The notes beneath the pieces were generated by a model. That model was not told the origin of the DNA, ran no database searches, and was given only the letters and a program-made list of their open reading frames with translations. The position numbers and the translations under genes were made by a program. Positions 4,211 to 21,716 of a stretch of 64,000 bases of DNA are shown here, piece by piece. How positions within the stretch are numbered: position 1 is the first letter of the stretch; every line of letters begins with the position of its first letter. Origin of the DNA: Brevibacillus composti (lineage in GTDB: Bacteria > Bacillota > Bacilli > Brevibacillales > Brevibacillaceae); assembly GCF_016406105.1 (NCBI RefSeq), contig NZ_CP066308.1, positions 1,251,501-1,315,500 on the forward strand, given 5' to 3'.

Positions 4211-5392
4211 ATGCGCATCCAACCATCCGCCATGGTTGACCGGCTGCCGACGCAATTTTTTGCCACGCTGGTCGCCAAAGTAAACAAGGCCATAGCGGCC
4301 GGACATGACATCATCAATCTGGGGCAGGGCAATCCCGATCTGCCGACCCCGCCGCATATCGTGGAGGAGCTCTCGCTGCAAGCCGCTCGCCCGGTTCATC
4401 ACAAATACCCGCCCTTTAGCGGCCGACTGGAACTGAAGCAGGCTGTCGCCCACTGGTACAAAGAGGAGTTCGACGTCGACCTGGACCCGGAGGAGGAGGT
4501 GGCGATCCTGTTCGGCAGCAAGACCGGCCTGGTGGAGATATGCCAGGTGCTGATGAATCCGGGAGATGTCGCATTGGTACCGGACCCGGGCTATCCGGAT
4601 TACTGGTCCGGAGTAGCCGTGGTAGACGGCCGCATGGTGATGATGCCGCTGCGGGCGGAGAACGCCTTTTTGCCTGATTACGGCCAGCTCAAGGCAGAAG
4701 ATCTGGAAAAGGCGAAGCTGATGTTCCTGAACTACCCCAACAATCCGACAGCGGTCAATGCACCGGTGGAGTTTTATGAAGAGACGATTCGCTTCGCGAA
4801 GCGGCACGAAATCGTGGTCTGCCATGATTTTGCCTACGGCGCGATCAGCTTTGACGGCAAAAAGCCGGTCAGCTTCCTGCAGGTCCCCGGGGCCAAAGAG
4901 GTGGGGGTGGAGTTTTACACCCTGTCCAAAACCTACAACATGGCTGGCTGGCGGGTAGGGGCGATGGTCGGGAACAAAGAGCTGGTGAGGCTGATTAACC
5001 TGATCCAGGACCATTACTTTGTCAGTCTGTTCGGCGCTGTGCAGATGGCAGCGGCCAAAGCGATGACCGGCTCCCAGCAGTGTGTGCGCGACCTGGTACA
5101 GGTCTACCAGAGCCGCCGGGATGTGCTGTTTACAGAGATGCATCGCATCGGCTGGCAGGCCAACCCTTCGGAGGGGTCGTTCTTTGCCTGGCTGCCCGTA
5201 CCCCAGGGCTATTCGTCGGTAGAATTTTCCGATTTGCTGCTGGAAAAAGCGCATGTCGTCGTCGCTCCGGGCGTCGGGTTTGGACCGACCGGGGAAGGGT
5301 ATGTGCGCGCCGCGCTGTTATCCACGGAAGAGCGGCTCGCGGAGGCTGTCCGGCGGATTGAGAAGCTGGGCTTGTTTGCCGGGGAAAAATAA
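4211..5392 (+). CDS. mtnE: MtnE-like PLP aminotransferase (methionine salvage)
   Basis: Class I/II PLP aminotransferase, 393 residues. Motifs include NLGQGNPDLPTPPH near the N-terminus, PDPGYPDYWSG, NYPNNPT, HDFAYGA and the Schiff-base lysine in SKTYNMAGWR (about K240). These segments match Bacillus YkrV/MtnE, which transaminates 2-keto-4-methylthiobutyrate to methionine. The SAM riboswitch directly upstream supports the same role. The start is ATG 4211 after AGGAAGGGAAAG; an upstream in-frame TTG sits in the terminator and is rejected. No other mtn genes adjoin it, so it is an isolated member of the salvage pathway. Confidence 0.88.
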   Translation: MRIQPSAMVDRLPTQFFATLVAKVNKAIAAGHDIINLGQGNPDLPTPPHIVEELSLQAARPVHHKYPPFSGRLELKQAVAHWYKEEFDVDLDPEEEVAILFGSKTGLVEICQVLMNPGDVALVPDPGYPDYWSGVAVVDGRMVMMPLRAENAFLPDYGQLKAEDLEKAKLMFLNYPNNPTAVNAPVEFYEETIRFAKRHEIVVCHDFAYGAISFDGKKPVSFLQVPGAKEVGVEFYTLSKTYNMAGWRVGAMVGNKELVRLINLIQDHYFVSLFGAVQMAAAKAMTGSQQCVRDLVQVYQSRRDVLFTEMHRIGWQANPSEGSFFAWLPVPQGYSSVEFSDLLLEKAHVVVAPGVGFGPTGEGYVRAALLSTEERLAEAVRRIEKLGLFAGEK

Positions 5393-8102: not shown

Positions 8103-8366
8103 CTAAAAAATAAACTGGTCCAGATGCTGCTTCAGCGCGTCGATCCCGATGGCAAACCCGAGGCATTGGCTGGATTGAATGATAAAGGCATTGAGCCCGA
8201 CCACTTCTCCGTTCAGATTGATTAACGGGCCGCCGCTGTTGCCTGGGTTGATCGCGGCATCCGTTTGAAAAATCTCGTCGTAGACGCGTTTGGCCACCTG
8301 CAAGCGGCGGTTTTTGGCGCTGATAATCCCGGCTGTGACGGAGTTTTCCAACCCAAGCGGGGAACC
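8103..8366 (-). CDS. 3' half of interrupted trypsin/HtrA-like protease
   Basis: Reading from the 9-bp core (8366) to the stop, this encodes [20 protein letters not shown] and the catalytic serine motif NPGNSGGPL, ending HLDQFIF. It has no start or ribosome site of its own. Upstream of the core the open frame continues only into low-complexity element DNA (to 8561). The matching 5' half with the His and Asp residues ends at the same 9-bp core at 12055-12063, in the same codon phase. Joined, they give a 237-residue protease without PDZ domain, triad at about H88, D118, S194. Confidence 0.88.
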
Positions 8367-8392
8367 GTCTGTTTCGATAGCGGCAAACAAAG
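8358..8392 (+). repeat. Left attachment junction of the element
   Basis: Core CGGGGAACC followed inward by GTCTGTTTCGATAGCGGCAA. The inner arm is an inverted match to the inner arm at the right junction. Confidence 0.75.
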
Positions 8393-8448
8393 GCGGGGTA
8401 TCGACGGGGCGAGAGGCATCTCCTGCACCGGGCGGGCATTTGCACCGG

Positions 8449-8560
8449 CCAGGCACTGTACCATCGGGCACTGTGCCAGCCAGGGACGCACCAGCCTGAC
8501 ACTTTACCGTCCAGGCACTGTACCACCAGGCACTGTACCACCAGGCACTGTACCCAGGCA
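8449..8560 (+). repeat. 15-bp tandem repeats near left end of element
   Basis: Three adjacent copies of CCAGGCACTGTACCA (8511-8555, last base varies), one intact copy at 8449-8463 and degenerate copies between. They lie between the left core and the recombinase stop codon and are the only part of the element with no gene. They may be protein-binding repeats or simply slippage products. Confidence 0.75.
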
Positions 8561-8586
8561 CCGCTTAACCGGGCTCTTCTCAGCGG

Positions 8587-10056
8587 CTACCGGTACTCCA
8601 CCAGGCGGAGCAGGGCAGGGCGGCCTTGGTGCGGTGCCGCGGGCGGACCTGCTTCGGCCTCCAGCCTCTGCAGTAAGAGCTGGATCAGCTGCTTGCGCTC
8701 CTCGCGCGTCGCCTGCTCCCAGATCCACGCCCAATCCAGCTTCCGTTTTTCCCCTTTTGCCTCCATCGCGATTTTCTCCATCAAGGCTGCGGGGCTGCAT
8801 TCCTCGTCCGACCGCTCCATTTCCTCCCTGGCCAGCTCCCGCTGTCTGGCCTGCAATTCCTCCAGCGAAATCACCCCGGCTTCATAAGCCTGCATCCAGC
8901 GCCGTCGTTTTTGCGCGAGCTGCTCTGGCGATCCGGCAGCCCGATGCACGGGGGAAGCGGGCCGCTTTCTCTGCAGGGTGTGCCGCATGGCGGACCAGAG
9001 CTCTTCCTGGAAGGAGGAGAGTCGATCCAGCAGCTCCGCCTCCAGCCGGTCTTCCCGCAGCGCGGGCGCCTGGCACGCGCCTTCTTTCCGGTTTTTGCAC
9101 AGATAGTAGACGTGGCGGTAGCGTTTGCCGCTGTTTTTGCGGATCACTGCTGTCTTTCCCCGCATCTCCCCTTGGCAGCGGGCACAGTAGAGCAGGCCGG
9201 AGAAGAGAAAAGGGGAGGCCAGTGCCCGCGGATGCTTTTGCTGTCGATGCAGCAGCCGCTCTTCGGCACGTCGAAACGTCTCCCGGTCGATGATGGCCGG
9301 GTGGGAGCCCTCGATTAGAATCCATTCATCCGGTTTGTTCTGACGCTGACCCGCTTCCGCATAGTTCCAGCGAAGCGTCCCGCAATAGACGGGGTTGCGC
9401 AGCAGGCGGCTTACGGCACTGCCGCTCCACTTGCCGCCGTGCTTTCCCCGATAGCCCTCCCGGTTGGCCCGCTCAGCGATCTGTCCGGGTGTGCTGCCGG
9501 CTACATATTGCTGATACATCCGCTGGACGACCGTCGCCTCCTCCGGATGGGGGACGAGCTGCCCTTGCTTGAGTGTGTAGCCGTAGGGGGGAGGGCCGCC
9601 CGGCCGCTTTCGCTCGCGGGCCATCTGCTCCATTCCCAGCTTGACGCGTTCGCCGAGATTTTCCCGCTCCCACTGGGCCAGTGCCGCTACCAGCGTGATG
9701 AACAACCGGCCGATGGCGGTCGTCGTATCGTATACCTCCGTGCAGCTCTTAAAGCGGACGTTCGATTCCTCGAATACCTGCAAGAGCTGATACAAATCGA
9801 GGACGGACCGGGTTAGCCGATCCAGCCTGTAGACCAGCACGATATCGATTTTTCCAGCCCTCACATCCGCGAGCAGGCGCCTGAGCTCCGCTCGATGGAT
9901 ATCCTTGGCGCTGACCCCCTCATCCGTGTAGACGCCGGCCAGCGCCCAGCCCTGAGACTGAATGTAGGCGAGCAGCCGCTCCTTTTGCGCGGCGATGGAG
10001 AAACCCTCGGCAGCCTGTTCCTCGGTGCTCACCCGCAAATAGATCGCTGTCCTCAT
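8587..10056 (-). CDS. Large serine recombinase
   Basis: Site-specific recombinase, 489 residues. The resolvase catalytic domain occupies about residues 3-150 with nucleophile S10 in YLRVSTEEQ and the YRLDRLTRS segment. It is followed by the Recombinase domain (about 165-270, PPYGYTLKQG, LLRNPVYCGTL) and a zinc-ribbon with CARC, then a coiled-coil-like region. The start is ATG 10056 after GGGAGGGG; an open extension to 10218 has no ribosome site. All domains appear intact. The gene lies between the element's attachment junctions and very likely catalyses its integration and excision, like SpoIVCA for skin. Confidence 0.92.
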   Translation of the reverse strand: MRTAIYLRVSTEEQAAEGFSIAAQKERLLAYIQSQGWALAGVYTDEGVSAKDIHRAELRRLLADVRAGKIDIVLVYRLDRLTRSVLDLYQLLQVFEESNVRFKSCTEVYDTTTAIGRLFITLVAALAQWERENLGERVKLGMEQMARERKRPGGPPPYGYTLKQGQLVPHPEEATVVQRMYQQYVAGSTPGQIAERANREGYRGKHGGKWSGSAVSRLLRNPVYCGTLRWNYAEAGQRQNKPDEWILIEGSHPAIIDRETFRRAEERLLHRQQKHPRALASPFLFSGLLYCARCQGEMRGKTAVIRKNSGKRYRHVYYLCKNRKEGACQAPALREDRLEAELLDRLSSFQEELWSAMRHTLQRKRPASPVHRAAGSPEQLAQKRRRWMQAYEAGVISLEELQARQRELAREEMERSDEECSPAALMEKIAMEAKGEKRKLDWAWIWEQATREERKQLIQLLLQRLEAEAGPPAAPHQGRPALLRLVEYR

Positions 10057-10216
10057 CGCATCCCCTCCCGAAGCGCGGCATGCTAGAGTGTACAGACAAA
10101 GGGGCTCGCGTATGCCTGACCTACCTAAACTTTTTCCGCGAAAACACGGGGATCGCGGCCAGGCCCTGTCGGGATCGCACCGCAAGCGCCGGCGAGGGAA
10201 ATCCCCTCGACAGGAC

Positions 10217-10258
10217 AAAAAAAGCCTGCGGCGTCATAGAGTTCAGACGCAGCAGGCG
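10217..10258 (-). terminator. Terminator of the HxlR gene
   Basis: On the minus strand, GCCTGCTGCGTC...GACGCCGCAGGC is followed by TTTTTTT. Confidence 0.75.
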
Positions 10259-10283
10259 AGACGGGCGAGGGCAGCAGCAGGAT

Positions 10284-10604
10284 TTACATCCACTTTTGCC
10301 CCCAAGTATGAATGGACTCGATCACAGGACGCAGCTCTTCCCCTTTTTCGGTGAGCTGGTACTCGATGCGGACGGGAATCTCCGGGTATACCTTCCGTTC
10401 CAGAATCCCCTGTTCTTCCAGTTCCTTTAGTCGCTCCGAGAGCATTTTATCACTCATCTGTGGAACCATTTCCCGGATGTCCTTAAACCTTACAGCTCCA
10501 CGCAGCAGCACGTTGATAATCAGGCCGGTCCATCTCTTGCCGAGAATGTTGATGGCCCCTTCGTATTTCGGACAGGTTTGCTCGTTTTCAAATGCTTGAC
10601 CCAC
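10284..10604 (-). CDS. HxlR-family transcriptional regulator
   Basis: 106-residue winged-helix DNA-binding protein. Family features: Cys near the N-terminus (ENEQTCPKYEGAINILGKRWTG), FKDIREMVPQMSDKMLSERLKELEEQGI and YQLTEKGEELRPV. Start is GTG at 10604 with AGAGGTGA upstream. It is inside the recombinase element, divergent from the YheC/YheD gene, and ends in its own terminator. HxlR proteins often sense electrophiles through the conserved Cys. A role in control of the recombinase or of the divergent gene is only inference. Confidence 0.88.
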   Translation of the reverse strand: MGQAFENEQTCPKYEGAINILGKRWTGLIINVLLRGAVRFKDIREMVPQMSDKMLSERLKELEEQGILERKVYPEIPVRIEYQLTEKGEELRPVIESIHTWGQKWM

Positions 10605-10843
10605 GATGGTGTCACCTCTGAGGTACTTCTACTATGTCTTTATTGTAGCATATCCACTTGAATAAGGTAAGTAACGCGCGTTTGCAGCGGTACCTATTGT
10701 TTTTTCCAACCCCGCGCAGATTATGCGTACACCTGGGGCATCCGCCCCGGCAGGTAGGCGCTTGCCCGATTCCCGCCTGTGCGTTTCCCCCGATTCTTTT
10801 CTGTCATAGACTATCCCAGATGAGAGACGGAGGAAGGGATTGC

Positions 10844-11950
10844 ATGGCAACCAAACCGATACTGGGCATTCTTACCTGGCGGGAAGGAAAGCGTTTCGAA
10901 GAGCCGGGCTATTTGCGCCGCTTAGTGCTGGCCGGCAGGCAGATGGGTGCGGAGACTTTTCTCTTTTCCCACCAGGATGTTTTTTTGTCGCAGAAAAAGA
11001 TAAGAGGGTTTGTGCCCGCCAAAGGCGGCGGCTGGGAAAGCCGAATGTTTCCCTGGCCCGAATTGGTGATTGACCGCTATCGAAAAAGGGTAAAGGAATA
11101 TATGCGGCTCCGTCACAGCGGCCTGTTTTCTTTTGCGAACAGCCCGTTCAGCAAAAAGTGGCGCGTGACGGAGTTCTTGTCCAAGCACGATCGGGTAAAG
11201 CGGTGGGTACCGGAGACGCGGCTGTATGCCAGAGGGAGCGTCAAAGCGATGCTGAGCCGCTACCCTATCGTTTACGTAAAACCGGGCAACGGAACAGGAG
11301 GGCGGAGCATCGTCAAGATCGCCGCGCAGGGGAAGCAGTATCTCGTGCAGGGGCGGGATCGGCGGCTGCTTCAGAAAAAGGCGAGCTTCAGCAGCGCGGA
11401 GGCAGTCGAGCGCTGGATTCAGCGATGGGTGCGGGAACAGCGGATCCGGGACGGAAATTTTCTCGTCCAGCAGGGTCTCGATCTCGCTCTCGTCCCGAAC
11501 CGCGTGGCCGATGTGCGCCTCCTGATTCAAAAAAACGGAGCGGGCGAATGGGACGTGACCGGCTGCGGCGTGCGCCTCGGCCCCGTCGGCAGTTCGATCT
11601 CCAATCTGCACGGAGGCGGCGAAGCGATCTCCTTCTCCCGTTTTGTCGCCAAGCGGTTCGGTGCGGAGCGAACCAGACAGATACAGCAGGAATGCAGCCA
11701 GATGGCCCATGAAGTTGCCGCCGTACTGGAGGAGAAGTTTGGCCGGATGATGGAATTCGGGCTGGATGTGGGAGTGGATGTCCAGGGCCGGGTATGGCTG
11801 ATCGAAGTGAATCCCAAGCCGGGGCGGGAGATCTTCCGCCAGATGGGGGATCGGGAGACGTATGCGGAGGCGATCGCCCGGCCGGTCTCTTTTGCGCTCC
11901 ACGTGATCTCCACGGAAGGGAGGCAGAGAGCCCGCCATACGGGTACCTAA
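10844..11950 (+). CDS. YheC/YheD-family ATP-grasp, spore coat-associated
   Basis: 368-residue ATP-grasp protein of the YheC/YheD family (endospore coat-associated proteins in Bacillus). Family segments: PWPELVIDRYRKR, FFANSPFSKKW-like FANSPFSKKWRVTEFL, YVKPGNGTGGRSIVKI, VQQGLDLALV, RLLIQKN, and the metal-binding C-terminal LIEVNPKPGREIF. GGAGGAAGGG precedes ATG 10844; an upstream open frame from 10658 is not supported. As cargo of the element, it ties the insertion to sporulation. The ligase substrate is unknown. Confidence 0.88.
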   Translation: MATKPILGILTWREGKRFEEPGYLRRLVLAGRQMGAETFLFSHQDVFLSQKKIRGFVPAKGGGWESRMFPWPELVIDRYRKRVKEYMRLRHSGLFSFANSPFSKKWRVTEFLSKHDRVKRWVPETRLYARGSVKAMLSRYPIVYVKPGNGTGGRSIVKIAAQGKQYLVQGRDRRLLQKKASFSSAEAVERWIQRWVREQRIRDGNFLVQQGLDLALVPNRVADVRLLIQKNGAGEWDVTGCGVRLGPVGSSISNLHGGGEAISFSRFVAKRFGAERTRQIQQECSQMAHEVAAVLEEKFGRMMEFGLDVGVDVQGRVWLIEVNPKPGREIFRQMGDRETYAEAIARPVSFALHVISTEGRQRARHTGT

Positions 11951-11967
11951 AAACAGGACCGCCTCCA

Positions 11968-12513
11968 TCACAAGGTCGCCTCCATCGCTGCTCGCTGCGA
12001 GCGAGGGCAGGCGGGATGGCGGGGGCGGATACGGTTTGCCGCTATAGCAACAGGCGGGGAACCAATGCTGATGACCCATTCGCCGACTTTCGTGTCCGAG
12101 GAGGTGCCCAGCGGCAATGGGTACAGCTTGCAATCTGCATCAATCTTGATCACCGCATAATCACGCACGCGATCTGCCAGTACCCGTTTCGCTTCGAAGA
12201 CGCGCCCGTTGTATAATTTGACGAGGATGGTGCGCGATTTTCCGATGACGTGTTCACTGGTCAGGATATATCCTTTGGGATGAAAGAGAAAGCCGGAACC
12301 GTAACTTCGCTCGGATGCCAAAGACTGTTGATCGGAAACAAGGCTGCGGATCAGGTCTTCTACATTATGGGACGGATGGGTATCTTCCGTAACAATGGAA
12401 ACAACGCCATCCCTGACACGCTCGATGATCGGGACGAAGAAGTTGAAGGGGTGCAGACTGCTGCTCACAGGGTATTTGACTCTGGCGTAGCTGTTCCATT
12501 TTTTACTTTTCAC
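11968..12513 (-). CDS. 5' half of interrupted trypsin/HtrA-like protease
   Basis: GTG start at 12513 preceded by GGGGGAG. Encodes the first barrel of a trypsin-like serine protease: YGSGFLFHPKGYILTSEHVIG (His at about residue 88), RDYAVIKID (Asp about 118) and VGEWVISIGSP, where the family normally continues into GL...TAGIIS. Instead, after the core at 12055-12063, the frame enters element DNA and stops 29 codons later with unrelated residues. The serine-bearing half is 3.7 kb away at 8103-8366. No signal peptide or membrane segment is evident, so a cytosolic protease is predicted after rejoining. Confidence 0.88.
   Translation of the reverse strand: MKSKKWNSYARVKYPVSSSLHPFNFFVPIIERVRDGVVSIVTEDTHPSHNVEDLIRSLVSDQQSLASERSYGSGFLFHPKGYILTSEHVIGKSRTILVKLYNGRVFEAKRVLADRVRDYAVIKIDADCKLYPLPLGTSSDTKVGEWVISIGSPPVAIAANRIRPRHPACPRSQRAAMEATL
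12028..12063 (-). repeat. Right attachment junction of the element
   Basis: Read on the minus strand: GGTTCCCCG followed inward by CCTGTTGCTATAGCGGCAAA. It pairs as an inverted repeat with the left inner arm around the core, the expected form of a split attP dyad. Confidence 0.75.
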
Positions 12514-12776
12514 GTTTCTCTCCCCCTACAGCAGATAGGTATGTATCATCTTATGGCAAGGGCAGAGGGAAGGAACGCCCAAAATATAAGCCGTGGGATA
12601 TATCAATATTTTTAATTGATATAATAAAGAAATAGCATTGGTATAATGATAATGAAAAGTTTATAATTACACTAGTAAAGAATATTTCGAACATATAAGC
12701 AGTTTCGCAAAATATGCATGTTGACGATACTGCGCCAAAAATAGGGGAATGCTTAGGTATTGGAGGATGTAGAGAG

Positions 12777-20696: not shown

Positions 20697-21716
20697 ATGC
20701 CGGTAACAATCTATGATGTGGCGAGAGAAGCAGGAGTCTCGATGGCAACCGTTTCCCGGGTGGTAAATGGGAATCCGAACGTAAAGCCGCTGACCAGGAA
20801 AAAGGTACTGAGCGCGATTGAGCGTCTCGGGTATCGGCCCAATGCAGTCGCCCGCGGTCTAGCCAGCAAAAAGACAACGACGGTCGGTGTCATCATTCCG
20901 GATGTTTCCAGTCTGTTTTTTTCTGAATTGGCCCGCGGCATTGAAGACATCGCGACGATGTATAAATACAACATCATTCTCTGCAACTCGGACCAACGCC
21001 TGGAGAAAGAGCTGCAGCTGATCAACACGCTTTTGGAAAAACAGGTGGACGGGCTTTTGTTCATGGGCGCGGAGATCAAGGAAGACCATCTGCAAGCGCT
21101 GAAATCCGCCTCTGTTCCGACGGTACTGGCGGCCACGAGGGATGCCGACAATACGCTGCCTTCGGTGACGATCGACCATTTCCAGGCGGCTTATGATGCG
21201 ACCCGGGAATTGATCGATCACGGGCATAAGCGGATCGCGATGATCACCGGGCCGATGAACGACCCGCTTGGCGGTTTGATCCGCTACGAAGGGTACAAGC
21301 GTGCCCTGCAGGACGCCGGTCTGCCGCTGGATGAGGCCTTGGTTGCGCACGGCAACTTTTTCTACGAGTCTGGCCTCAAGGCGACGGCCCAGTTTCTCAC
21401 ACTGACGGAACGGCCTACAGCGGTCTTCGCGGCCAACGATGAGATGGCCATCGGGGCGATCCACGCGGCGCAGGATGCCGGGCTGCAGGTTCCCCGCGAT
21501 CTGGAGGTCATCGGCCATGACAACATTCGCCTGGTAGAGATGGTACGTCCGCGGCTCACCTCGGTGGTGCAGCCGATGTACGATATCGGGGCGGTGGCCA
21601 TGCGCCTCTTGACCAAATATATGAACAACGAACAGGTGGATGAGCATGTCGTGCTGCTTCCGCATCGGATCGAGCATCGGGAGAGCACGCGTCCGCGCGA
21701 AACGGCTGACAGCTAA
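20697..21716 (+). CDS. ccpA: Catabolite control protein A
   Basis: 339-residue LacI/GalR-family regulator that with HPr-Ser-P binds cre sites to control carbon metabolism. HTH at the N-terminus ([23 protein letters not shown]), hinge helix region [14 protein letters not shown], then a periplasmic-binding-like domain ([42 protein letters not shown]). Gene order aroA-ccpA-acuC supports CcpA over other LacI members. ATG 20697 follows GAGGGTG; the preceding GTG is too near. Confidence 0.93.

Follow-up and report, generated by a model that had tools for sequence, protein, structure and literature searches.

How does a spore-forming bacterium obtain a working protease from a gene that is cut through its catalytic domain? 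The question is raised by a 64,000-nucleotide stretch of Brevibacillus composti DNA (NCBI RefSeq assembly GCF_016406105.1, contig NZ_CP066308.1, positions 1,251,501 to 1,315,500 of the forward strand; hereafter the window), in which a small element encoding a large serine recombinase (LSR) interrupts a minus-strand gene for a trypsin-like protease of the HtrA type that lacks a PDZ domain. A preliminary description of the window had proposed that precise excision of the element rebuilds the gene, following the logic of sigK/skin reconstruction. The evidence below bears that proposal out for the structure and makes it very probable for the function. Comparison among genomes gives good support to the rebuilding of the gene by excision, and timing in the mother cell, which rests on promoter-like motifs and distribution, is likely. 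Overall, we judge it probable that a small domesticated integrative element interrupts this spore-former protease and that skin-type excision in the mother cell rebuilds a late spore protease.

The gene is divided at the Ser codon of the sequence I-G-S-P-L-G-L, where the 9-mer CGGGGAACC occurs at 8358-8366 and again at 12055-12063, an offset of 3,697 bp. Both cores read GGT-TCC-CCG on the minus strand in identical phase, and removal of 3,697 bases gives, as had been proposed, a continuous protease of 237 residues, 151 from the N half and 86 from the C half. The N half runs from a GTG at 12513 to VISIGS, and the C half carries NPGNSGG and closes with FIF and a stop codon, 43 residues past the catalytic Ser. 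By homology, and with a family pattern that we take to define the triad, His88 and Asp118 belong to the N half and Ser194 (NPGNSGG) to the C half, in agreement with the earlier placement of His and Asp upstream of the split and Ser beyond it; of the 144 positions of Pfam Trypsin_2, the halves cover 1-89 and 82-144, respectively. The naturally intact proteins of two relatives, G002 and G028, each cover positions 1-144, and no PDZ domain was found in either; the best NCBIfam match of the G002 protein, TIGR02037, reaches 216 bits, below the cut-off of 416. Because solved HtrA structures align through the split site in the G002 protein (best PDB chain 1l1j, E 4.5e-46), the join is a normal HtrA sequence.

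The 9-mer alone is weak evidence, since a third copy lies at 21488-21496 on the minus strand and three or more copies also arise in 5 of 100 shuffled windows (0.71 copies expected in each). More can be read from its surroundings. Just inside the cores of the element (8358-12054, 3,697 bp) are 24-nt arms (8365-8388 and 12034-12057) that are 88% complementary and form the putative attP half-sites. When the element ends were joined by script, the resulting attP was nearly palindromic, with 21 of 25 symmetric positions pairing around TC, the predicted crossover dinucleotide, with which the Ser codon begins. All 26 elements scored, 25 from the genus and one from G038, have TC on both sides, and their attP symmetry is 14-21 of 25 positions (random expectation, 6.25). 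Half-sites also fit their own partners: the mean is 15.04 of 21 positions against 13.85 (sd 0.30) when partners are re-dealt among species with the four positions nearest the core omitted, and 0 of 2000 re-dealings reach the observed mean, a count to which species relatedness contributes and which is not a probability. Such co-variation of paired half-sites is expected of sites still in use. A chance repeat is excluded by the attP palindrome together with the recurrence of the split described below; the 9-mer by itself would not exclude it. The symmetry count leaves out four genomes (G031, G032, G033 and G037), where a simple two-piece join scores 7, 7, 9 and 4 of 25 because the actual join in these genomes is another.

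The LSR is undamaged, whereas damage would have counted against the preliminary description: its domains are complete here, its frame is open in all 30 collinear gaps, and each of the 25 split genomes of the genus, that of B. composti included, has a relative in this position. Most of the genus shares the split, which is not peculiar to one strain. A protease orthologue occurs in all 39 genomes of the family, interrupted in 31 and uninterrupted in 8, and further full-length matches occur in other families, so that intact orthologues, whose absence would likewise have counted against it, do exist. Of the 26 genus genomes, 25 carry the split at one and the same codon, as does G038, and recurrence in so many independent assemblies disposes of an assembly artefact. 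LSR distances correlate with those of the host gene AmpS (Spearman 0.81, n = 24/29; genus only 0.61, n = 21; Mantel p 0.001), and the LSR and host-gene trees recover the same genus clades except for the order within G000 (B. composti), G004 and G021 and within the tight G005 group. On account of these shared clades, recurrent independent insertion inside the genus was rejected.

The sole intact genus member, G002, is nested in the split clade, with local support of 0.906 for a group of five and 0.154 for its exact sister. A genome-wide search of G002 found no LSR at E 1e-60 and no relative of the element's HxlR regulator at E 1e-32; the other 38 family genomes all have such an HxlR relative, inside or outside the element. 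The continuous G002 site is identical to the join predicted for G005 over 54 of 54 bp, and seven other relatives match at 52 or 53. G002 is a natural, precise loss of the element, which can thus go without killing the lineage.

Elsewhere in the genus, both halves are under strong purifying selection while split. Among the 25 split genus genomes, the median ratios of nonsynonymous to synonymous divergence (dN/dS; Nei-Gojobori, pairs kept at dS 0.05-1.5) are 0.052 for the N half (98 of 300 pairs) and 0.002 for the C half (56 of 300), with 0.126 for the recombinase (41 of 300), 0.061 for HxlR (91 of 300) and 0.111 for the YheC/D cargo gene (23 genomes, 36 of 253 pairs), all from synonymous sites near saturation and from pairs that are not independent. 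With G002 included and only dS > 0.05 required, the medians are 0.047 (220 pairs) and 0.018 (118 pairs) for the N and C halves. Values this low in split genomes are not what a broken gene would show.

Two lines of evidence suggest that the protease is linked to sporulation. The first is distribution. Carriers at E 1e-38 or better make up 170 of 398 Bacilli genomes and SpoIVA is present in 267; the protease occurs in 170 of the 267 SpoIVA-positive genomes and in 0 of the 131 SpoIVA-negative ones, a sample in which genomes are related, so that a p-value would not be literal, and in which some weaker matches may be PDZ-containing paralogues. The second is the presence of promoter-like motifs. A TGGGC box followed by a spacer of 17 nt (36 genomes) or 18 nt (3 genomes) and then CATANNNTGA precedes the protease gene in all 39 family genomes, intact or split, and this layout occurs once in the B. 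composti genome; 33 of the 39 boxes fit what we take to be the GerE consensus. Upstream of the LSR, a pattern resembling the presumed sigma-E consensus (regular expression, mostly GCATA-N16-TGTA[CG]ACT) matches in 22 of 29 elements; the alignment of this region takes in 21 elements. Sigma-E and sigma-K promoters have common -10 sequences and differ at -35, ATA versus AC, according to one study (PMC3789822), and spacing is given in a figure legend of another (PMC517825). On both strands of the window the sigma-E-like pattern has two matches, the LSR site and one that starts at 12717 on the minus strand, 204 nt ahead of where the protease gene begins. Taken together, the sigma-E-like motif of the recombinase, the sigma-K/GerE-like motif of the protease and the restriction to SpoIVA-positive genomes would fit the proposed analogy to sigK/skin.

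Several points weigh against this reading: (i) The GerE-like box of B. composti and those of five other genomes fail the assumed consensus at the first position. (ii) The protease -10 ends in TG, not TA, and no AC-type -35 is shown. (iii) Seven of 29 elements lack the sigma-E pattern: G004, G019, G020 and G024 have near-matches and G032, G033 and G037 have none. (iv) Sigma-E, sigma-K and GerE were assigned by likeness to consensus sequences, which for sigma-E and GerE are presumed ones. (v) The element is dispensable, as G002 shows. (vi) In 23 of 26 elements the C half forms an open frame that has some start codon; a Shine-Dalgarno-like site precedes such a start in 6 of the 26 and in none of the other 20. 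(vii) The block of TGNTACAAT type upstream of HxlR resembles a vegetative promoter, which makes stress-linked control possible.

The last point belongs to the rival explanation that survives best, although we regard it as rather unlikely: excision would be reversible and either under redox or other stress control through the HxlR/DUF24-type regulator or random during growth, and the protease would be phase-variable, not developmental. In its favour, 27 of 30 collinear gaps hold HxlR beside the recombinase, the CPK motif occurs in every one of the 25 genus rows, and HxlR has the dN/dS given above. However, in most of the 21 aligned rows HxlR is followed by a terminator-like T-run, after which the LSR has a promoter-like block of its own, and the restriction of the protease to SpoIVA-positive genomes also counts against this rival. 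Moreover, each family genome except G002 has one HxlR match at E 1e-32, inside the element in 27 and elsewhere in 11, and the latter, 56-69% identical, sit in family genomes whose gap holds none, suggesting that HxlR is a host gene captured by the element. Such a capture might penalise loss of the element. In the shortest elements (2.1-2.2 kb) HxlR and the LSR are the only conserved genes among open reading frames (ORFs) of at least 45 aa, so that a directionality factor would be HxlR, a tiny ORF or a host protein, or none would be needed. An element-borne HxlR as an indispensable directionality factor is not supported, as G032 and G033 have the same recombinase type (LSR1) with the nearest HxlR relative elsewhere.

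That an ordinary integrative element simply inactivated a dispensable gene, with no rebuilding, is very improbable. Insertion of LSR elements into genes is common, an element-free G002 exists, and the LSR resembles phage integrases (36-44% identity to the 12 matches listed among 1323 phage records), yet in 25 genomes purifying selection acts on both halves despite the split, the reading frame and the attP symmetry have been kept, and the recombinase frame is uninterrupted in 30 of 30 gaps. A live phage was considered and rejected, no phage genes being recognised among the element proteins scanned and the LSR being 36-44% identical to those 12 records. Least credible of all is independent translation of the two halves followed by assembly into a single protease. 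Although the split falls between the His/Asp part and the Ser part and most C halves have the start codons noted above, the in-frame extensions of the N half range from 8 to 433 aa, with similarity only among close relatives, and a Shine-Dalgarno-like site is confined to the 6 of 26 elements.

Under the preferred reading, excision in the mother cell, the recombinase would pair attL with attR and cut at the TC dinucleotide of the common core. The element would be released as a circle with the palindromic attP, leaving an in-frame attB (G-S-P-L-G-L), and sigma-K, together with GerE, would then direct late transcription of the rebuilt gene for the 237-aa protease. The interrupted copy would persist in the forespore and in vegetative cells, through which the arrangement would be inherited.

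Comparable arrangements exist. The skin element lies in sigK of B. subtilis and C. difficile, with a sigma-E-controlled recombinase. There, too, an LSR-encoding element interrupts a mother-cell gene in frame, with the recombinase made first and the host gene later; the Brevibacillus case differs in that the target is a protease rather than a sigma factor, the element is 2.1-3.7 kb, no phage genes are recognised and the distribution is nearly genus-wide. SPbeta in spsM is reportedly an active phage whose excision rebuilds a spore gene, whereas the Brevibacillus element holds 2-3 genes. The gin element in gerE of B. cereus ATCC10987 is described as a 28.6-kb element with three recombinases and a 42-aa factor, GirX, and its rearrangement was demonstrated experimentally (PMC5595907). 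It shares with the present element a non-phage character, a 9-bp core and an LSR, and differs in that ours has one recombinase among ORFs of at least 45 aa. The yin element in yabG of C. botulinum V73 is described as prophage-like and found in a single isolate, YabG being a cysteine protease of sporulation under sigma-K control (PMC10747680); in Brevibacillus, too, a protease gene is split that is probably one of sporulation and under sigma-K, but there the split occurs in many species and its inheritance follows the host tree. Also a trypsin-like HtrA of this genus, HtrAw of Brevibacillus sp. WF146 has a membrane anchor and a PDZ domain (PMC5359297), whereas the split gene has no PDZ domain; a longer HtrA-like paralogue, a 491-aa frame at G000:C1:4418172, lies elsewhere in the B. 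composti genome. Literature searches, which excluded subscription papers and preprints, found no report of the Brevibacillus split.

The Brevibacillus element thus follows the same logic as skin, gin and yin, and differs from them in the target, the small size, the lack of recognised phage genes, near-fixation in the genus and the double elements described below. Host benefit is unclear for gin (28.6 kb), yin (one isolate), skin and SPbeta, since these are larger and patchy. In Brevibacillus a small element follows the host tree, its gene halves and half-sites look selected and one natural loss exists, so that useful timing versus tolerated excision is directly testable. The very small recombinase unit and its 26 co-varying attP sites should also be of use for serine-integrase work.

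In three genomes, G032 (B. fluminis), G033 (a metagenome-assembled genome) and G037 (sp. SYP-B805), the gene is in three pieces: the first element lies at G-S-P and a second LSR near N-S-V-T-A-G, with a short gene piece standing alone between the two elements. The second LSR is 24-30% identical to LSR1 in the matches compared and 48-56% identical to the LSR of G031 (B. massiliensis), which has element 2 only. B. migulae (L130), where LSRs of both types accompany a gap of 8,952, is three-piece by signature. We lean slightly towards the view that in these genomes, with two distantly related LSR elements less than a dozen codons apart, an active protease would need two separate, orthogonal DNA splicing events in one mother cell, and that the family would exemplify a lineage retaining introns at the DNA level in a single protease gene for most of the time over which it diversified. 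In G027 (B. dissolubilis, L081), which was excluded from the element, attP and LSR-promoter analyses, LSR2 lies between the N half (4578-5030) and an inverted C half (16806-16579), possibly a misassembly; with this layout, recombination might restore the gene through an inversion rather than an excision.

The features of the locus are collected in Table 1.

Table 1. Features of the interrupted protease locus, in window coordinates.
Feature	Position	Strand	Basis or comment
Protease 3' (C-terminal) part: S-P-L-G-L, Ser194, FIF stop	8103..8363	-	Trypsin_2 82-144; 90-98% identical in 25 other genus genomes
Putative attR: core 8358-8366 and inner half-site 8367-8388	8358..8388	-	Inverted-repeat arm, attP symmetry
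LSR, intact: Resolvase, Recombinase, Zn ribbon	8587..10056	-	Pfam; open frame extends to 10218
Sigma-E-like motif of recombinase, GCATA-N16-TGTACACT	10087..10115	-	Conserved block, 21 elements aligned
HxlR/DUF24-type helix-turn-helix regulator, CPK motif, own TGNTACAAT-type upstream block	10284..10604	-	Pfam HxlR; upstream alignment
-10-like motif CATAGACT upstream of YheC/D gene	10805..10812	+	CATA-type octamer
YheC/D-type ATP-grasp protein, cargo on opposite strand	10844..11950	+	Pfam ATPgrasp_YheCD
Putative attL: core 12055-12063 and inner half-site 12034-12054	12034..12063	-	Inverted-repeat arm, attP symmetry
Protease 5' (N-terminal) part: GTG start, His88, Asp118, ends G-S of core	12058..12513	-	Trypsin_2 1-89; orthologues 74-93% identical in 25 other genus genomes
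Promoter-like block of protease, TTTTGGGCGTTC-N17-CATAAGATGA: GerE-like box, sigma-K-like -10	12546..12584	-	Conserved in family

The YheC/D gene is present in 25 of 30 gaps and missing from those of G003, G025, G032, G033 and G037. A CATA-type octamer stands near the start of 21 of the 24 YheC/D genes scanned, in two of the 21 inside the longest frame, against a background of 9 matches to CATA[CG]A[ACT]T per 128 kb. Between the recombinase stop and attR, a 15-nt tandem repeat of CCAGGCACTGTACCA extends for 6.9 copies (8449-8554); this gap is more than 200 nt here versus about 30-60 in several relatives.

In G028 and G030 (the latter B. laterosporus), a gene for an ABC-type substrate-binding protein, close to a ribonuclease-Z-like gene, is divided into two parts that match (L131:6385-14130 and L132:5407-11111), with an LSR about 49% identical to the present one beside the C part; in G003 this gene is in one piece. 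No long exact core was found in the B. laterosporus split gene, which is a further candidate for gene rebuilding. Finally, two more matches to the serine recombinase, at 29-33% identity and next to each other, one of them interrupted by a TAG, lie elsewhere in the B. composti genome, at G000:C1:3889405-3891451.

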